DNA of 64,000 nt, taken from positions 114,488 to 178,487 of IMG/VR virus record IMGVR_UViG_3300009103_001934; one strand, given 5' to 3'. The translations under genes and the position numbers were made by a program. Source of the DNA: a virus. Positions 5,811 to 47,763 of the stretch are shown here, in pieces (position 1 is the first letter of the stretch; every line of letters starts with the position of its first letter). The notes under the pieces are model-generated. The model made no database searches. It saw only the letters and a program-made list of their open reading frames with translations, and was not told the DNA's origin.

Positions 5811-5839
5811 TTGCACTAAAATGGGATGTACGGTATACT
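5811..5839 (+). promoter_or_regulatory. Strong sigma70-type promoter of structured RNA
   Basis: TTGCAC at 5811-5816 and TATACT at 5834-5839 are separated by 17 nt. No ORF follows; the transcript would cover the structured region beginning near 5846. Confidence 0.75.
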
Positions 5840-5845
5840 ATTAAA

Positions 5846-6328
5846 ACAGTGAGGGTAACACCTCCACGATCTTTGAGACAATTTAAGAAGGCGACTGTGG
5901 TAGTCCTCACGCAAGTGAGTGCCCTCGCGGGAAAGCCCCCAGTGGAAGCGCGACGAAACTGGACGGTGATACGATACCGGAGGGATGGGGTTCGACTCCT
6001 CACGCCCTAACAATTTAAGCCTTGGGTGACGGAACAAACGTCCGACAGAGGAAACGGCCCAAGCAATTTTTACTCCGGCGACGGTTGGAGTAAGGGAATG
6101 GCTGAATAACCCTCCATCATAAGGGGTAAGGCACAGGGCCGCGCGTTAGAGTGCAATCGTATGAGGCGCGTGGTTCTGGTAGACTGGTAAACTTGAACTG
6201 TATTGTGCACTGGTCTTGATGGTAATGCAGCAATCCATCTTCCCATTAATTTAGCATAATCCTGAGGTTGGTGAAAACCATTAAAGAGATATTAAGCAAC
6301 AACGCCGAAATCCGCCTCTGATTTTTTT
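5846..6328 (+). ncRNA. Large structured RNA candidate (~480 nt)
   Basis: The region has no plausible ORF but many designed-looking helices: CTCAC-GCAA-GTGAG with a GNRA tetraloop (5906-5919); a perfect tRNA-like T-arm, TGGGG-TTCGACT-CCTCA (5986-6002); a three-way junction closed by CTTGGG/CCCAAG (6021-6063) with inner GACG/CGTC and CCG/CGG hairpins; TTACTCC/GGAGTAA (6070-6093); and a long wobble-containing helix near 6180-6220. CAATTTAAG occurs at 5879 and 6011. A T8 run at 6321-6328 is a possible 3' end. Large ornate phage RNAs such as GOLLD and ROOL are possible relatives, but I cannot match the sequence to either from memory. Confidence 0.6.
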
Positions 6329-6348
6329 TGCCCTAATGTTAATTTTTT

Positions 6349-6386
6349 GCTTGACACGCCGGGACCGGTCCCGGCGCCTGTCAAGC
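6349..6386. terminator. GGGACCGGTCCC module 1, bidirectional hairpin
   Basis: GCTTGACA and TGTCAAGC bracket a perfect 20-bp palindrome, CGCCGGGACCGGTCCCGGCG. T-runs lie on both outer sides (TTTTTT before, CTTTTTTT after), so it should terminate transcription in both directions. It is followed by TTATTCACA, a DnaA-box-like nonamer (6392-6400). The interval 6401-6570 shows no gene. Confidence 0.8.
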
Positions 6387-6575
6387 TTTTTTTATTCACA
6401 GCCTGTGAGAATTTCTTAAAAAGGGGCGATTTCTCCGGTGTGAAATTCGGCGTATATAAGAAACTATTTGACCCCATACCCTGCAAAAACAGTGTCAAGC
6501 TCAAAAACAATTACCCTATATAAACGCATTTAATTAGCCTAATTAAAAAAGATGTGTGTGACGTGCATTTTTTTC

Positions 6576-6604
6576 TTGCCAGTGATTAGGAAGTGTGAGA
6601 TAAT
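6576..6604 (+). promoter_or_regulatory. sigma70-type promoter
   Basis: TTGCCA at 6576-6581 and GATAAT at 6599-6604 are 17 nt apart. The leader is about 40 nt and contains AGAGAACGAACT before the ATG; a GAACGAACT element also precedes the gene at 10215. Confidence 0.7.
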
Positions 6605-6650: not shown

Positions 6651-7586
6651 ATGCCTATTACCGCAAAACAAAGCAAAAACAAAGATTGGGATTTCACCGT
6701 AGCACAGGAGGAGCTTTTCCTGCCTGACGGCAAGAAGTCCGGTTTCTTCGCGTCCCGCCGCCTCGACAACAACGAGGTGCTGGGCTGTCACACTAGCCGC
6801 TACGGCATCGTCCAGAATGGCGACCTAGTGGAAAAAGCCGAGAGTGCTTTTCGCCGCAAGGGATTGGGCGATTTTGAGCGCAACATCTATGTGACTGACG
6901 GCGGAGCCAAGCTGCGCGTCAATTACGACTTCCAAGGTCACGATATTGAAGTGCCAGAAGTGGGTGACAAGATGGGCTTTCGCCTGACCTTGCAAAACTC
7001 ATTTGACCGCTCGCTGCGCGTGTCCTTTGCGCTCGGTATGCTTCGCCTCGTTTGCACCAACGGTATGCAGACGCTCGAAAAGGAATTGGATATGCTCAAG
7101 AAGCACTCCAAGAACTTTGACCTCGGCGCGTTGCTGACTGATGACGCAATCGACAAGGCTATGGCTACGTTCACCAACACGGGGAACACATACGCCGCGC
7201 TGGCTCGCGTTGGAGTTACTCAAGAGCAAGGCATCTTCGCCCTGCAAAACCAAGCCAACACTGGTTTGATTTCTGACAAGGTGCGCGAGGGTATCGCAAG
7301 CGTGTGGAACAACCCACGCGAGGATGGTGCTGACGGTTCGGTTGGTGATGACCGCAACCTCTACCAACTCTACAACGCTGCCACGCAGTACCTCACCAGT
7401 GACAACTTGGTTGACAAGAAGTCTGGCGATGCTGTCGGCACGTTCGAGTCCACCCGCTTCGAGTACGCGAACCGCGTTAGCTCGCAACTGCTCAAGCGGT
7501 TCAACCTCGCCAGCGACAACCCCAAGCGGTTTGACAAACTGGTTGCGGTTGCCAAGGCTGACGGCGTAAAGGTCGAGAACAACTAG
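6651..7586 (+). CDS. DUF932-family phage protein
   Basis: This 311-residue protein matches the DUF932 phage/plasmid-like family. Recognisable parts are an N-terminal LGCHTSRYGIVQNGDLVEKAE block (about 44-64), a central F-R-L-TLQNSFDRSLRVSFA segment, and the RLVCTNGM motif (about 131-138), then a helical C-terminal part. The family is widespread in phages and plasmids; its biochemical role is unknown. The gene has its own promoter and a clean terminator, making it monocistronic. Its base composition is more GC-rich than the right-hand half of the window, like its small-gene neighbours. Confidence 0.85.
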   Translation: MPITAKQSKNKDWDFTVAQEELFLPDGKKSGFFASRRLDNNEVLGCHTSRYGIVQNGDLVEKAESAFRRKGLGDFERNIYVTDGGAKLRVNYDFQGHDIEVPEVGDKMGFRLTLQNSFDRSLRVSFALGMLRLVCTNGMQTLEKELDMLKKHSKNFDLGALLTDDAIDKAMATFTNTGNTYAALARVGVTQEQGIFALQNQANTGLISDKVREGIASVWNNPREDGADGSVGDDRNLYQLYNAATQYLTSDNLVDKKSGDAVGTFESTRFEYANRVSSQLLKRFNLASDNPKRFDKLVAVAKADGVKVENN

Positions 7587-7754: not shown

Positions 7755-7991
7755 ATGATGAACGAATTAGATCAACTCAAAGAAGACATTTGCATGAAGA
7801 GCTTCGGTCGCAGCCGAAGTCTCGCGCTAGCCGCAGGGCAGTGTGTTAAGTGTGGAACCTATGACCTCGACTTTCGCGATGAACCATCGCAACGTGAGTA
7901 CAAACTCACCGTGTGGTGTCAGTCGTGCCAAGACGATTTCTTCGGGCTGGATTCGGACGGTGAAATCGCATGGGAGGAGGATGAGGATTAA
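7755..7991 (+). CDS. Small zinc-ribbon protein
   Basis: This 78-residue protein starts with a doubled Met and has two CxxC knuckles, CVKCG (about 30-34) and WCQSCQ (about 54-59), forming a probable zinc ribbon. A conserved-looking SFGRSRSLALAAGQC stretch precedes the first knuckle, and an acidic tail (WEEDED) ends the protein. It probably binds a protein or nucleic acid. It has no leader and no Shine-Dalgarno. Its stop overlaps the next start (TAATG), implying coupled translation. Confidence 0.85.
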   Translation: MMNELDQLKEDICMKSFGRSRSLALAAGQCVKCGTYDLDFRDEPSQREYKLTVWCQSCQDDFFGLDSDGEIAWEEDED

Positions 7992-8503
7992 TGGATATCG
8001 CAAACACACTTAAGCGCGAGGTCTATCGCAACCTTCACTTCAGGAACGAGACCGTTTATTCTGTACGTAAGGAAGGCCTTGTAGAGGGGCATGCCCTGAT
8101 GGTCATCATGGACGGAACGACTAAGACCCCAATTAAGTTTGCGGTCGGCCCTAAGGGCAACCAGCGCGTACGTGATGAAGAGCGCAAGAACGTGCACGCT
8201 GTTATCCGCGGGCACATCAACAACGCCGTGTGGTATACAAGTGACATGGATGTGGATGCATTCGAAATGGGTCATGCTAAGGATGCCTGCGAGTACTTTA
8301 AAAAACAGTACATGATCGAGCGTGAGGGATATCGATGGCTTGAGGTTGTATATAATCCTTACAAGTACCGCACCTTCATGACTCGTGACACGGATCCTTT
8401 CAGATCGAATGAAGACGTCTATGAGCCTATCTTTACCGCTCGCACAGTCATCATCGGCGAGACGTGCTGGGCGCAAGTCCGGGCGGAGCACGAGATGAAT
8501 TAA
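7991..8503 (+). CDS. Hypothetical protein
   Basis: This 170-residue mixed alpha/beta protein has no recognised motif. Segments such as HALMVIMDGTTKTPIKFAVG and ARTVIIGETCWAQVRAEHEMN suggest a small compact beta-containing domain. It is translated from the same leaderless mRNA as the zinc-ribbon protein (1-nt stop/start overlap) and ends at a strong terminator. The reverse strand also holds a 167-codon open frame, but the operon context supports this strand. Confidence 0.75.
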   Translation: MDIANTLKREVYRNLHFRNETVYSVRKEGLVEGHALMVIMDGTTKTPIKFAVGPKGNQRVRDEERKNVHAVIRGHINNAVWYTSDMDVDAFEMGHAKDACEYFKKQYMIEREGYRWLEVVYNPYKYRTFMTRDTDPFRSNEDVYEPIFTARTVIIGETCWAQVRAEHEMN

Positions 8504-42504: not shown

Positions 42505-44046
42505 ATGGCAGATAACACCTATAGCCCGCAAACCCCGCCAATACAGGATTTAGATTATAAATCTTTCGGTCCGGATAGCATGGACGAAAACAAAAAACTG
42601 ATGGTTTATAACGATGGGTCCGTATTGGTTGAAAATATAGAAGAGCGAACTGCGGACGGGCTAAGCTACGAATTGGATAAAAAGAATAATTATGTTTATT
42701 TTTCAAATAACTTAGATGCCAATACTAAGGTAAAATATATCCCTAAAAACGTAGATAAAGTTTATTGTACTACTATTAATAAAACCTTTTCTATCAAAGG
42801 GGCTTTGGCTGTTTTTAAAAATGACGTAAGAAAGTTTATTGTTAAAAATTTAGATAGATACAAAACATCTAAGAAGTCACTCAAAAAAGAGATAGACAAG
42901 ATCCTACTAAAGAAAAATCAATTTCTTTGGACCGAAAAAAGACTAAGTAGCGAATGGAACAAAACTTACGTTGATAGCGTTACTCTAGGACCGTATAGCT
43001 GCGACACCACCCTAACCGTTACCAAAGATATAGAAATGATTAATGACTTAATAGTTATTAAAACAGGGGATTGGGGCCAGCTTTATGACTCGAAAACAAA
43101 AAAGATGAACACGGTAGCTCGCGCAGGAAAAATTGTTTGGGTATCTCCCCACGAAATTTTAAATTATTCCGGAGAGGCAAATTATTATTCAAGCGGTGAA
43201 GTATGGACCTATAACACAACTAACAGCGGTGTGTATTCAGGAGAAACTTTTTTGAATGTAAGTTATGGAGTAGGAAACAATAGGGAATCTTACGGTTTAT
43301 CTTCTCGGTTTATAAAAATTCCAAAAGACACTCAGATTAAGACTGAATTTCCATATGAAGAAATCCCAAGAGACGAAACACAATTATTTCTTGACACTCG
43401 TCAGGGGGTGGGGATTGAAAAACAATTTTTTAATGGTATATATTCAGAGTGGGATTGGGCTCAAAGGGTATTAACTGGGACTTGGGATGGAGTCGTTCCT
43501 TCGGGTTCATATATTGAATTGCAAACTTGGTCTACAAACCCTCAGTTCGTTGGCTTTAATGGAGAAATTACTGTTAAGCCTGTAGATACCACTTTAGTCG
43601 AGGATATTGATTTGTCTTACAATATAAGCGCTACAGCGTCGGATTTAAATTATCAAGCTTCAGTGAGAAAGGCGGTACAAAAGGCCAAAAATGTTTTTTA
43701 TAAAAAATTGAACAAACACTTGGTCTCTAAAGGCCTAAAGAAAAAATCTTCAAACCTTAAGAGGTATGATAAGATGCTGGAAAGAGTAGCTCAAAATGTA
43801 TACGATGGATTATCTTTTGTGAGAAATGAAAATATAGCAAAAATACAAGGCTTAGAAAGTAACCCCTTAGATGGACCGATATATTACGACGGCACAGCCA
43901 AAATGTATGGAGGAAGTAAGGAAGAGGCAGACTATGATTACTCACGAACAAAATCACAAAGAAGTTATTTAGGCTTGAATCCATCAAGCACGTCGCAATC
44001 TACCTCATCCAAGACGAACGCTGGAGACATGGGAGGAAGTTATTAA
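42505..44046 (+). CDS. Virion structural protein
   Basis: This 513-residue protein has a beta-rich N-terminal half, a helical segment (KSLKKEIDKILLKKNQFLWT) and a central region with YNISATASDL; the tail is Ser/Thr-rich (NPSSTSQSTSSKTNAG). The ATG at 42505 is chosen; the longer frame reaches back through the terminator. It is probably a head-tail or tail protein. No family is recognised. Confidence 0.65.
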   Translation: MADNTYSPQTPPIQDLDYKSFGPDSMDENKKLMVYNDGSVLVENIEERTADGLSYELDKKNNYVYFSNNLDANTKVKYIPKNVDKVYCTTINKTFSIKGALAVFKNDVRKFIVKNLDRYKTSKKSLKKEIDKILLKKNQFLWTEKRLSSEWNKTYVDSVTLGPYSCDTTLTVTKDIEMINDLIVIKTGDWGQLYDSKTKKMNTVARAGKIVWVSPHEILNYSGEANYYSSGEVWTYNTTNSGVYSGETFLNVSYGVGNNRESYGLSSRFIKIPKDTQIKTEFPYEEIPRDETQLFLDTRQGVGIEKQFFNGIYSEWDWAQRVLTGTWDGVVPSGSYIELQTWSTNPQFVGFNGEITVKPVDTTLVEDIDLSYNISATASDLNYQASVRKAVQKAKNVFYKKLNKHLVSKGLKKKSSNLKRYDKMLERVAQNVYDGLSFVRNENIAKIQGLESNPLDGPIYYDGTAKMYGGSKEEADYDYSRTKSQRSYLGLNPSSTSQSTSSKTNAGDMGGSY

Positions 44047-45530
44047 TGAGCTTTAAAACAAATAGAGTTAACAGAAATTTTGTTTTAACAACAAATTTAT
44101 ATTTTAATAGTAGCTCTTGGAATAGGTCTGGAGATACTACTCCTAGATTTTATTTAAAACCTTCGAACCTTACTCATCTAGAAAAAGTAGCTTTTAACTA
44201 CAGCGGAGCGAAAGCTAATGACTATGTAAAACGAGGGCATAAATTTTGGGGATATAAAAAAGATGATACCCTTACTAATAAAGAGGTCCTAGAGCATTAT
44301 GATCAAATTAAAACATCTTATCCATATGGATTTGTACAGGGAGATATAGCGAGCGAGAATAAATATAATATTGATGTAAAAAATAATGATGCTTTTCAGT
44401 CTTTTTACAAATCTTATTGGGATAATAATCCAGATAAGATAAAACAACCCAAAAAGGATACGAAAGGCGAATGGGATCACCCTCACCCTTATATATCTTT
44501 TACGACAAATGAAATTATTACCGCGAAACATAATGTAGGTACGGTCCCGGTTTTAGAGGCGGGAATACCGACATGGGCCGAATATGGCGTTGGCACCCCT
44601 TACTATTCTCAACCAGAAGCCTATTCATGCATGGATCAAAACTTAAGCGCAGTTGCTTATGATTATTATGGCGATAATAAACTCGCTTTTATTATTGAAG
44701 GCGGCGCGCATATGCCCTTAGTGCTAGCTAACAGTGGTCATTCTTATACATTTAATTTACAAAGTGGCGCTACTCCATGGGCTACCTCTAATGTGTGGCC
44801 CACAGGGGTCGGAGGAGCACACTCAGGAATAGATTTACACTTTAGCACTGGAAGGGATGGCACTTGGAATGGTTTCGACAAATTGGATGACGGCGTAGCC
44901 GGTGACGCGTTTATTAGAAGAGCATACGAAAAACCGGGCACACACACCTATTACGTATCCTCTGCAGTTAAAGACGGTGATCCAAATACCGGGCATCCTT
45001 GGTATAATTCAGGTAGCGTTTCTGGATTTGTTATAAGTGGTGAAAGCCAACAGTCTGGACCATTAAATTTATATAGGGGTTGGACCTATGTTTTCAATCT
45101 AACTGGATCCTCTAACGTGTCTGAGCGAGGAACGGATGGCAATTCACAAAACGCTGGAGGGGACTATGATCGTAGCGCGTTATACTTCACTAATAGCCTT
45201 GTATCGGGCGAGTGGGGAAATGAATCTGAAAACGAACTTGGCGGCGGGATTTGGGCAACCGGTATCGGCGCAGGAATTTATACAATTAGTTTGGACTGGG
45301 ACTGTCCAGACACCTTCTTTTATCAAAATAGATATGCTGCGTATTATGGCGGCGTAGTAAACGTAACTGATCCTCCTACAGCTTTGGGTGATAAGCCGGG
45401 GCAAATAGTAAGGATCACCTTAAGCGGGGGTAAAGACGAATATCTATTTTATTATTCTCCTAATCAATCTGGAATGGGAGGATTAATGATACTAAAGGGA
45501 ACTTGCGACGGTAAAGTGGCGAGTATTTAA
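44046..45530 (+). CDS. Virion protein with two Y-x-F-N-L beta domains
   Basis: This 494-residue protein has two related C-terminal units, each beginning with a strand-like HSYTFNLQSG or WTYVFNLTGS and ending with a Tyr/Gly strand (THTYYVSS; IYTISLDWDC). The units resemble cupredoxin-like or adhesin-type beta sandwiches. It overlaps the previous stop (TAATG). It may be a tail or fibre-associated protein; the function is not established. The gene is directly upstream of the group I intron. Confidence 0.65.
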   Translation: MSFKTNRVNRNFVLTTNLYFNSSSWNRSGDTTPRFYLKPSNLTHLEKVAFNYSGAKANDYVKRGHKFWGYKKDDTLTNKEVLEHYDQIKTSYPYGFVQGDIASENKYNIDVKNNDAFQSFYKSYWDNNPDKIKQPKKDTKGEWDHPHPYISFTTNEIITAKHNVGTVPVLEAGIPTWAEYGVGTPYYSQPEAYSCMDQNLSAVAYDYYGDNKLAFIIEGGAHMPLVLANSGHSYTFNLQSGATPWATSNVWPTGVGGAHSGIDLHFSTGRDGTWNGFDKLDDGVAGDAFIRRAYEKPGTHTYYVSSAVKDGDPNTGHPWYNSGSVSGFVISGESQQSGPLNLYRGWTYVFNLTGSSNVSERGTDGNSQNAGGDYDRSALYFTNSLVSGEWGNESENELGGGIWATGIGAGIYTISLDWDCPDTFFYQNRYAAYYGGVVNVTDPPTALGDKPGQIVRITLSGGKDEYLFYYSPNQSGMGGLMILKGTCDGKVASI

Positions 45531-45555
45531 ATAAAAAACTTTTTGCATAACATTT

Positions 45556-45862
45556 TAATATGTGTTATAATAAATTAGATTGGCCGTATTGGGTGAACTC
45601 GGTAGAACTCTCTCGTAGACAATACCGAGCCAAGCCGGAAGTGGGCTTAGTGCTTCCGGAAGGTGTAGAGACTAGAGGGTGAGTCCCAACAATAACCCCT
45701 CCACGAGCGCCCAACACCGTAAAGGTGAAGATATAGTCCGAACTGCATGGCGACATGTAGAAGTCGTAATTAAAAAAGCGTCGATAACAACTTGGACTAC
45801 GAGATGAGTGCAGCGTACTAACTAGTGTCTATGCAGACATTAGCCCAGTATACTCAATTTTG
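45556..45862 (+). ncRNA. Group I intron, T4 td-like (IA type)
   Basis: Core elements resemble phage T4 td: AACTCTCTCGTAGACAATAC matches the td P3/P4 region (CCTCTCTAGTAGACAATC). Helices seen: P1 TTTAATA/TATTGGG (45554-60/45587-93, with U.G pairs), P2-like CTCGGTA/TACCGAG, P5 AAGCC/GGCTT, P7 GACTA (45670)/TAGTC (45734), P8 CACC/GGTG, P9 CTGCAT/ATGTAG, plus 3' helices to about 45855. AAGATATAGTCC is the classic S element. No homing endonuclease ORF is present. Exact ends are estimates; the 5' site after T45555 is suggested by the U.G pair and TAAT start as in td. Confidence 0.85.
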
Positions 45863-46683: not shown

Positions 46684-47763
46684 ATGTCAGATCAGAATTA
46701 CAAAGTTGACGTCGTACTCTCTGGTGCACAACAAACCAGCGTAGTCGTTGGTGGACCACCCTCAGTTAACGTCTCCGTGGGAGGAGCATCGAGTACCTCT
46801 GTTCAACAAGGCGCGACGAGTGCCTCGGTTTTATCAACCACACCAACCGCACACCCGACTGTAGGATTTGTGGGCGTACAAGGCCCCCCGGGAGAAATGG
46901 TATTCGCCAAGGGGGATCACGGTCAAATACAATATAATAGGCTGGGTTATATATCTGGCGTATCAAATTTTTTCTTTTATCCTGAAGCAAATAATTTATA
47001 TTTAAGCGGGGGATTGTTGTCTTCAAGAGGGGGTAAGTTTCAAATAACTGGTCTAGCTGTAGACACTGGAGCCTTTTTATTAAGGGATCCCGGAAATGAT
47101 AAAAATTTATTTAAAATAGATACAACTAATAAAAGAATCTCTATATCAGATACAACTACGGCTAATGAATATTATGTAGGAATAGGAACTGGGGTCGCTC
47201 GAGAGAGACTCCATGTCGCAGGAGGTAACTTAAGGGTCGATGGGGATATAGTTTTAGGGGGTAATATAGTCCCAACAGAAAGCGGTATTTATAACTTGGG
47301 CTCGCCCACTAGGCCTTTTAAAGAATTATATATTGAGGGGGATTCTATTCATTTTGTGAATTCTCAATCGAAAATTTCTGCCAGTTCAGATGGATTTGCG
47401 TTTACTACCCAAGAGGACGATGGTACACAAAAAGTACTTTTTCAGGTGACAAATGAAGGCGTGCATGCTGATGGATCTCTAATTACTGGCGTACCGTATA
47501 CTGGATTGAGAGACGGTGGAGCCTATTTGTCTTTTGACGTCCCAGATAAGGCGGCTAGTTTAGAAATAGATTACGGAAAAACTCTTAATTATGACCCACA
47601 AGTCCTATGCGATTTGGAGCCTCCACAGGGAAAAAATGAAATTTATTTTACGTCAGTACATAATGTAGAAAGAACTGGCTGTAACGTGTTCTTTAGTAAT
47701 AAAATCAGCGGAAATGGTTATATTTTGAATTGTCACGTGGGACCGAGGAATCCGCTTTTCTAG
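46684..47763 (+). CDS. Tail fibre-like protein
   Basis: This 359-residue protein has a Ser/Val-rich N-terminal repeat (VVVGGPPSVNVSVGGASSTS), a short Gly-Pro-Pro collagen-like turn, then beta repeats with GIGTGVARERLHVAGGNLRV and GNIVPTESGIYNLGSPTRPF, typical of fibre trunks (the LHV-GNL-V/GD type). C-terminal IYFTSVHNVERTGCNVFFSN could be the tip. It is one of a series of fibre genes. Confidence 0.75.
   Translation: MSDQNYKVDVVLSGAQQTSVVVGGPPSVNVSVGGASSTSVQQGATSASVLSTTPTAHPTVGFVGVQGPPGEMVFAKGDHGQIQYNRLGYISGVSNFFFYPEANNLYLSGGLLSSRGGKFQITGLAVDTGAFLLRDPGNDKNLFKIDTTNKRISISDTTTANEYYVGIGTGVARERLHVAGGNLRVDGDIVLGGNIVPTESGIYNLGSPTRPFKELYIEGDSIHFVNSQSKISASSDGFAFTTQEDDGTQKVLFQVTNEGVHADGSLITGVPYTGLRDGGAYLSFDVPDKAASLEIDYGKTLNYDPQVLCDLEPPQGKNEIYFTSVHNVERTGCNVFFSNKISGNGYILNCHVGPRNPLF

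Follow-up and report, generated by a model that had tools for sequence, protein, structure and literature searches.

By analogy, and without homology, the known RNA nearest in spirit to the one described here is RNAC (species 1 RNA) of phage T4, a stable RNA of about 140 nt; the functions of T4 RNAC and RNAD are unknown (PMC9697503). GOLLD and ROOL are large structured phage RNAs, also of unknown role, which are often located near tRNA islands (PMC12286853). The manA RNA is classed as cis-regulatory in Rfam and was described as a riboswitch candidate with copies in potential 5' UTRs (PMC2864571); binding of a riboswitch ligand by this family is not shown in PMC2864571 or PMC9964418. Whereas published manA RNAs are potential 5' UTR elements, in the locus studied here manA is one segment of a putative non-coding transcript running from promoter to terminator, beside a tRNA-like RNA of which our literature searches found no description.

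We studied the final 64 kb of a virus record 178,487 bases long (this whole stretch of 64,000 nt is called the window; record L005 is the same virus). Genes for a large terminase and a baseplate-wedge-like protein in the window mark the virus as a tailed phage. One large window protein that was sampled had almost no relative among 50,697 GenBank phages, and the region of interest had no blastn match in 50,697 phage records. The region presents, all in the positive strand, a promoter, a leader hairpin, a boxA-like element, the tRNA-like RNA, a small hairpin module, manA and a terminator-like hairpin, in this order. As judged from the sequence comparisons given below, positions 5811-6392 are a real, structured non-coding RNA operon, and the region is a string of modules, not a single ornate RNA. 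A previous inspection of the letters and their open reading frames (the sequence-only reading) had seen no plausible ORF here, and none is conserved in the homologues, which vary in length and have stops in most frames. The folding energy of the whole region showed a z of -1.13, with 14 of 100 shuffles folding equally well; energy folding gave no support by itself and missed the comparative fold; the evidence for a structured RNA is comparative. A search with 4227 Rfam families revealed nothing credible in the region besides manA, even at E values up to 10, and the homologues in L033, L034 and the L072 array had no family match.

The sigma-70-like promoter (TTGCAC-N17-TATACT, 5811-5839) was read directly: TTGCAC at 5811-5816, a 17 nt spacer and TATACT at 5834-5839. 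It had been called strong; the hexamers are present, and L108 has the same ones with the same spacing, but the strength did not hold, as the -35 box matches the consensus at 3 of 6 positions and a consensus scan did not call the promoter. Relatives have better promoters, of the TTGACA-17-TATAGT type, at the same place upstream of the same RNA. The leader hairpin (GTG AGG / CCT C CAC, 5849-5867, also a direct reading) has its equivalent in L108 as GATGAGG-GAAA-CCTTATC, and is followed by the boxA-like element TCTTTGAGACAATTTA (5870-5885), named for its resemblance to rRNA-type boxA. Its counterpart in L108 is GGCTCTTTGAAACAATTTAT, and elements of the GTTCTTTGA type were found in L003, L036, L023, L033, L072 and L073. 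The leader motif of the relatives, GTTCTTTGAAAATTT or GGCTCTTTGAAACAATTTAT, resembles GCTCTTTAACAATTTAT of E. coli; a 47-nt query containing GCTCTTTAACAATTTAT had matches in 5375 of 5426 E. coli genomes. The median was 7 sites per genome, which is how many rRNA operons E. coli usually has, and we take this site to be the rRNA boxA region. From this resemblance we infer, by analogy, antitermination of an untranslated transcript. At the other end of the operon a terminator-like palindrome (inverted repeats I1 and I2) is followed by a T run (6349-6392; not called by the consensus scan). The next gene, which encodes a DUF932 protein (Pfam; 6651-7586), has a separate promoter-like site, TTGCCA-17-GATAAT (positive strand, 6576-6604), with 10 of 12 matches.

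The tRNA-like RNA domain (5887-6010; 120.2 bits with our covariance model R1) showed a constant layout: in the 5' part, a 7-nt acceptor strand, 7 nt ending in UGG, a hairpin of variable length and the 5' strand of helix P2; in the middle, a GAAAGC stretch, an inner hairpin, the core GGUGAYACGAUA and the 3' strand of P2; and in the 3' part, a T-arm with a canonical T-loop, the second acceptor strand and A at position 73. In the window these correspond to the acceptor stem (5887-5893/6003-6009), a D-loop-like GG (5899-5900), the GCAA-capped insert hairpin CTCAC-GCAA-GTGAG (5906-5919), P2 (5922-5926/5980-5984), the inner hairpin (5939-5943/5958-5962), the core GGTGATACGATA (5965-5976), the T-arm TGGGG-TTCGACT-CCTCA (5986-6002) and A73 (6010). 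The GNRA-capped hairpin and the T-arm-like hairpin had been noticed from the letters and can be read directly. A 5' partner for the acceptor strand had been declared absent; the homologues, however, place it at 5887-5893, where GAAGGCG forms 5 of 7 pairs with CGCCCTA (6003-6009), the mismatches being pairs 1-72 and 3-70. The insert hairpin and P2 stand in place of the anticodon arm, and P2 encloses the core GGUGAYACGAUA, the best-conserved part of the RNA. An additional stem, CGGT/ACCG around GATACGAT, was excluded from the structure because it is not kept in L044, L060, L072 and L075.

Homologues were reached through manA. A manA pattern search led to the related phage L003, in which the sequence just upstream of manA aligned with the 5' half of the region in the window, and the shared strings, GTGGAAGCGCGACGAA and then GGTGANACGATA before the T-arm, were used as search patterns that gave L019, L020, L023, L028, L033, L034, L036, L044, L060, L072, L073 and L075. 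With model R1, 14 related virus records had exactly one match each; one of them, L019, had not been part of the seed. A fifteenth record, L108, was reached through a separate pattern made from the small module (6021-6063). Its tRNA-like RNA is very diverged (R1 32.9 bits, E 3e-5 in 795 kb), its unconstrained fold returned the acceptor stem, insert hairpin, P2 and T-arm, and its order is that of the window: promoter, leader hairpin, GGCTCTTTGAAACAATTTAT, tRNA-like RNA, small module and manA. Two broader pattern scans added no member when scored with R1; when prokaryote genome contigs were scanned with one pattern, the only match was false and lay in an apparent coding gene; and R1 did not match two cyanophage genomes and reached E 0.65 in a third, S-SSM7. 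The family is thus far drawn from uncultivated, partly fragmentary virus records.

In an alignment of 11 sequences and 23 pairs, standard pairs occupied 90.5% of the cells, against a shuffled mean of 76.6%, and 9 of the pairs had changed on both sides. The covariation score was 0.416 versus a shuffled mean of 0.170, with none of 500 shuffles as high, and fell to 0.10 or less when the partner strand was slid by 1 to 3 columns. As the shuffles ignore relatedness and the structure was drawn with the same sequences in view, the slid control and the independent checks weigh more. Covariation was seen in the acceptor stem, P2, the inner hairpin and the T-stem, and was clearest in P2, with A-U/G-C/U-A at one pair and C-G/G-C at the next, while the UGG and T-loop positions were invariant. 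The insert, 20 to 83 nt long in the aligned set, is a hairpin in all 11 sequences, with its stem remade in each subtype (UGCGC/GCGCA, UGCUAA/UUAGCA, CUCAC/GUGAG and GUAUU/AAUAC). These results bear out the large structured RNA proposed from the letters, for which covariation was the check suggested. The proposal of a new class of large phage RNA stands for the 5' half of the region, since on sequence comparison 5887-6010 is a new tRNA-like family with no Rfam match, and falls for the 3' half, which is the known manA.

Like T4 RNAC, the tRNA-like RNA would be a stable phage RNA, and RNAC (L103 1409-1547) also ends in a perfect canonical T-arm, CCGGG-TTCGAAT-CCCGG. RNAC lies within a tRNA cluster, whereas the tRNA-like RNA lies within an array of other structured RNAs, and R1 gave no match in the whole T4 genome at E values up to 10, that is, no homology to RNAC. 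Besides T4 RNAC and RNAD, phages would have another, unrelated family of tRNA-like RNA, and one in which the purpose of such stable RNAs can be studied concretely: each record has a single copy, the operon is easily recognised and a covariance model is available, so that deletion and pull-down could test the role of the family.

The modules are separated by AU-rich linkers. One linker sequence, ACAATTTAAG, appears just twice in the 64-kb window, and these copies mark precisely the 5' edge (5878-5887) and the 3' edge (6010-6019) of the tRNA-like RNA; at least two copies appeared somewhere in 7 of 100 shuffles, so the weight of the pair is in its placement. The small conserved hairpin module that follows (6021-6063, core GTGACGGAACAAACGTCCGACAGAGGAAACGGCC; no Rfam match) shares its core with L003, L036, L075 and L108, and its closing stems differ; the core reads GTGA-NG-AACAAACGTCCG-AGAGGAAACGGCC. 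Relative to manA, the module is upstream in the window and L108 and downstream in L003 and L036; in L075 it occurs alone, followed by a T run. The neighbours of the tRNA-like RNA differ between phages in general: a non-coding module with CTCAACCGGA (CTCAACCGGACGCAGATAAG) is common to L019, L023, L028, L072 and L073, and another, from GAGAGAAACATACTCG (GAGAGAAACATACTCGTTG) to CTCTCTAGG, to L020, L033 and L060. Both lacked Rfam matches, and the L073 array had none even under relaxed search settings.

We lean, with modest confidence, towards a non-coding phage RNA operon whose tRNA mimic acts on a host tRNA-handling factor or on a tRNA-attacking nuclease and whose manA is a stand-alone RNA. The host polymerase would start near 5846 and read an rRNA-like leader, whose boxA-type element may keep Rho off the long untranslated transcript. 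The transcript would yield three structured RNAs with AU-rich linkers between them, the pieces presumably being released by host RNase P and RNase E-like cleavage. The first RNA would mimic a tRNA, the acceptor stem, D-loop GG and T-loop giving a tRNA elbow and the hairpin and P2 around the conserved GGUGAYACGAUA core replacing the anticodon arm; once matured and presumably stable, it could serve as a mimic or decoy that ties up either a tRNA-handling factor of the host or a defence nuclease directed against tRNA. Sequence comparison shows the module order, the secondary structure, the single copy per record and the lack of both an encoded CCA and a conserved ORF. Taken from the shape of the RNA, a mimic or decoy function appears most likely, and fits best because the elbow, with its invariant GG and T-loop, is kept and the decoding arm is gone. 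The tRNA elbow is read by many tRNA-handling machines (PMC4810234). Phages also face immunity directed at tRNA, and PrrC and Cas12a3 are among the defence nucleases that cut tRNA. Cas12a3 cuts tRNA tails after contacting the acceptor stem and T-arm, and the CCA tail is among its contacts too (PMC12851939). More tentatively, and with the balance slightly against it, we suggest that this phage clade runs rRNA-like non-coding operons with the tRNA mimic as lead product, and that manA is a trans-acting, stand-alone RNA travelling with the mimic.

The strongest rival is a pure processing role, in which the tRNA-like fold would recruit RNase P and 3' enzymes and protect the ends, the payload being manA or the other modules. 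The AU-rich linkers between modules agree with such a device, and tRNA mimicry elsewhere recruits RNase P for end maturation (PMC4810234). Two observations weaken it. In two records, L034 and L044, acceptor G1 lies 6 nt past the end of the -10 box; transcription would therefore start at the first acceptor base, making a 5' cut unnecessary. Moreover, the inner core GGUGAYACGAUA, conserved above all the rest, would be superfluous for a processing signal. We consider this role unlikely, though deserving of attention.

The placement of manA bears on a second alternative: that the transcript is a 5' leader, a manA riboswitch for the DUF932 gene with the tRNA-like part as an extra switch domain. The window manA (6071-6249; RF01745, 77.9 bits against a cut-off of 55.2) spans the full model, positions 1-192. 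Of the 14 records, 7 have a manA match, which in three of the seven scores below the Rfam cut-off. A leader would agree with the cis-regulatory class in Rfam and the riboswitch candidacy from potential 5' UTRs (PMC2864571), and several cyanophage copies do end 10-40 nt before a gene. In the window, however, the next credible gene lies 402 nt downstream of manA, beyond the terminator-like palindrome and the second promoter-like site; no gene is positioned for control by manA, contrary to a 5' UTR placement. In G003 a convergent gene begins 5 nt past manA, and in the 1234 nt after manA there is no start of a same-strand ORF of 50 aa or more; G007 is the exception, as a gene may start there about 90 nt or less from manA. 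Gene order around manA also varies between relatives: G010 has manA and then the tRNA-like RNA, and G013 the reverse. On the upstream side, in G003, G007 and G010, manA follows 9 to 19 nt behind an ORF that, by eye, seems related to the L5 gp82-like gene of the window. We thus consider a leader very unlikely. Since in these phages there is mostly no gene directly behind manA, its location argues that manA here is probably a stand-alone RNA, not a gene leader, and such natural cases bear on whether manA is a riboswitch at all. Some further placements were recorded. The window itself has an L5 gp82-like gene at 7991-8503, with relatives in L095, L097 and L098; in related phages, such relatives often immediately precede manA or the tRNA-like RNA. 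In the Synechococcus phage S-SSM7 (L014 1483-1754) a tRNA-Gly, not an ORF, begins at the end of manA, and in the three cyanophages P-HM1, P-RSM4 and S-SSM5 (L008, L009 and L011) manA lies 61-68 nt behind the major head protein gene gp23, as if it belonged to the gp23 3' region.

Still a little less probable is a tRNA gene that has decayed or carries insertions, or else a tmRNA variant. In its favour, the acceptor stem, the GG of the D-loop, the canonical T-loop and A73 have all been kept, and the 3' third alone resembles, by blastn, tRNA-Thr genes of T5-like phages. As in a tRNA (RF00005), there are a 7-bp acceptor, UGG in the D-loop position, a T-arm and A73; unlike a tRNA, the RNA has no anticodon arm in the usual place, has large insertions and does not encode CCA. 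Neither Rfam nor ARAGORN gave a tRNA match at 5887-6010 or in the homologues. CCA is encoded in none of 14 tRNA-like copies, all of which keep A73, against 11 of 12 sampled true tRNAs of the same phages, which argues against an ordinary tRNA, and covariation maintains the structure instead of letting it decay. The RNA shares with tmRNA a large body that is not tRNA, closed by tRNA-like ends; we dropped the idea of a permuted or variant form of tmRNA, as there was no tmRNA model match or ARAGORN tmRNA call in the region and, by inspection, no tag reading frame common to the subtypes, between which the inner region varies both in sequence and in length. A GOLLD- or ROOL-type ornate RNA, raised in the sequence-only reading and suggested by the size and structure of a phage RNA (both families occur in phages, often near tRNA islands; PMC12286853), can practically be set aside: neither covariance model matched at gathering level or at E values up to 10, manA alone reached an Rfam threshold, and those RNAs are much larger single molecules, whereas here short modules are arranged differently from phage to phage.

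Two minor observations are added. Records L038, L051 and L053 gave weak R1 scores and contain what resemble minimal tRNA-like RNAs with the GGTGANACGATA motif; they were left out of the family because the search pattern itself demanded GGTGANACGATA. These short RNAs (L051 2752-2810, L053 850-1020 and L038 14310-14385) have an acceptor stem and a T-arm and were not called by ARAGORN, and both of those in L053 have a G3-U70 pair and A73, which are alanine identity signals. Elsewhere in the window, Rfam revealed a group I intron match (RF00028, 61.6 bits, 45523-45760, positive strand) located just after the ORF at 44046-45530 and before that at 46684-47763, and these two ORFs may be parts of one interrupted gene.
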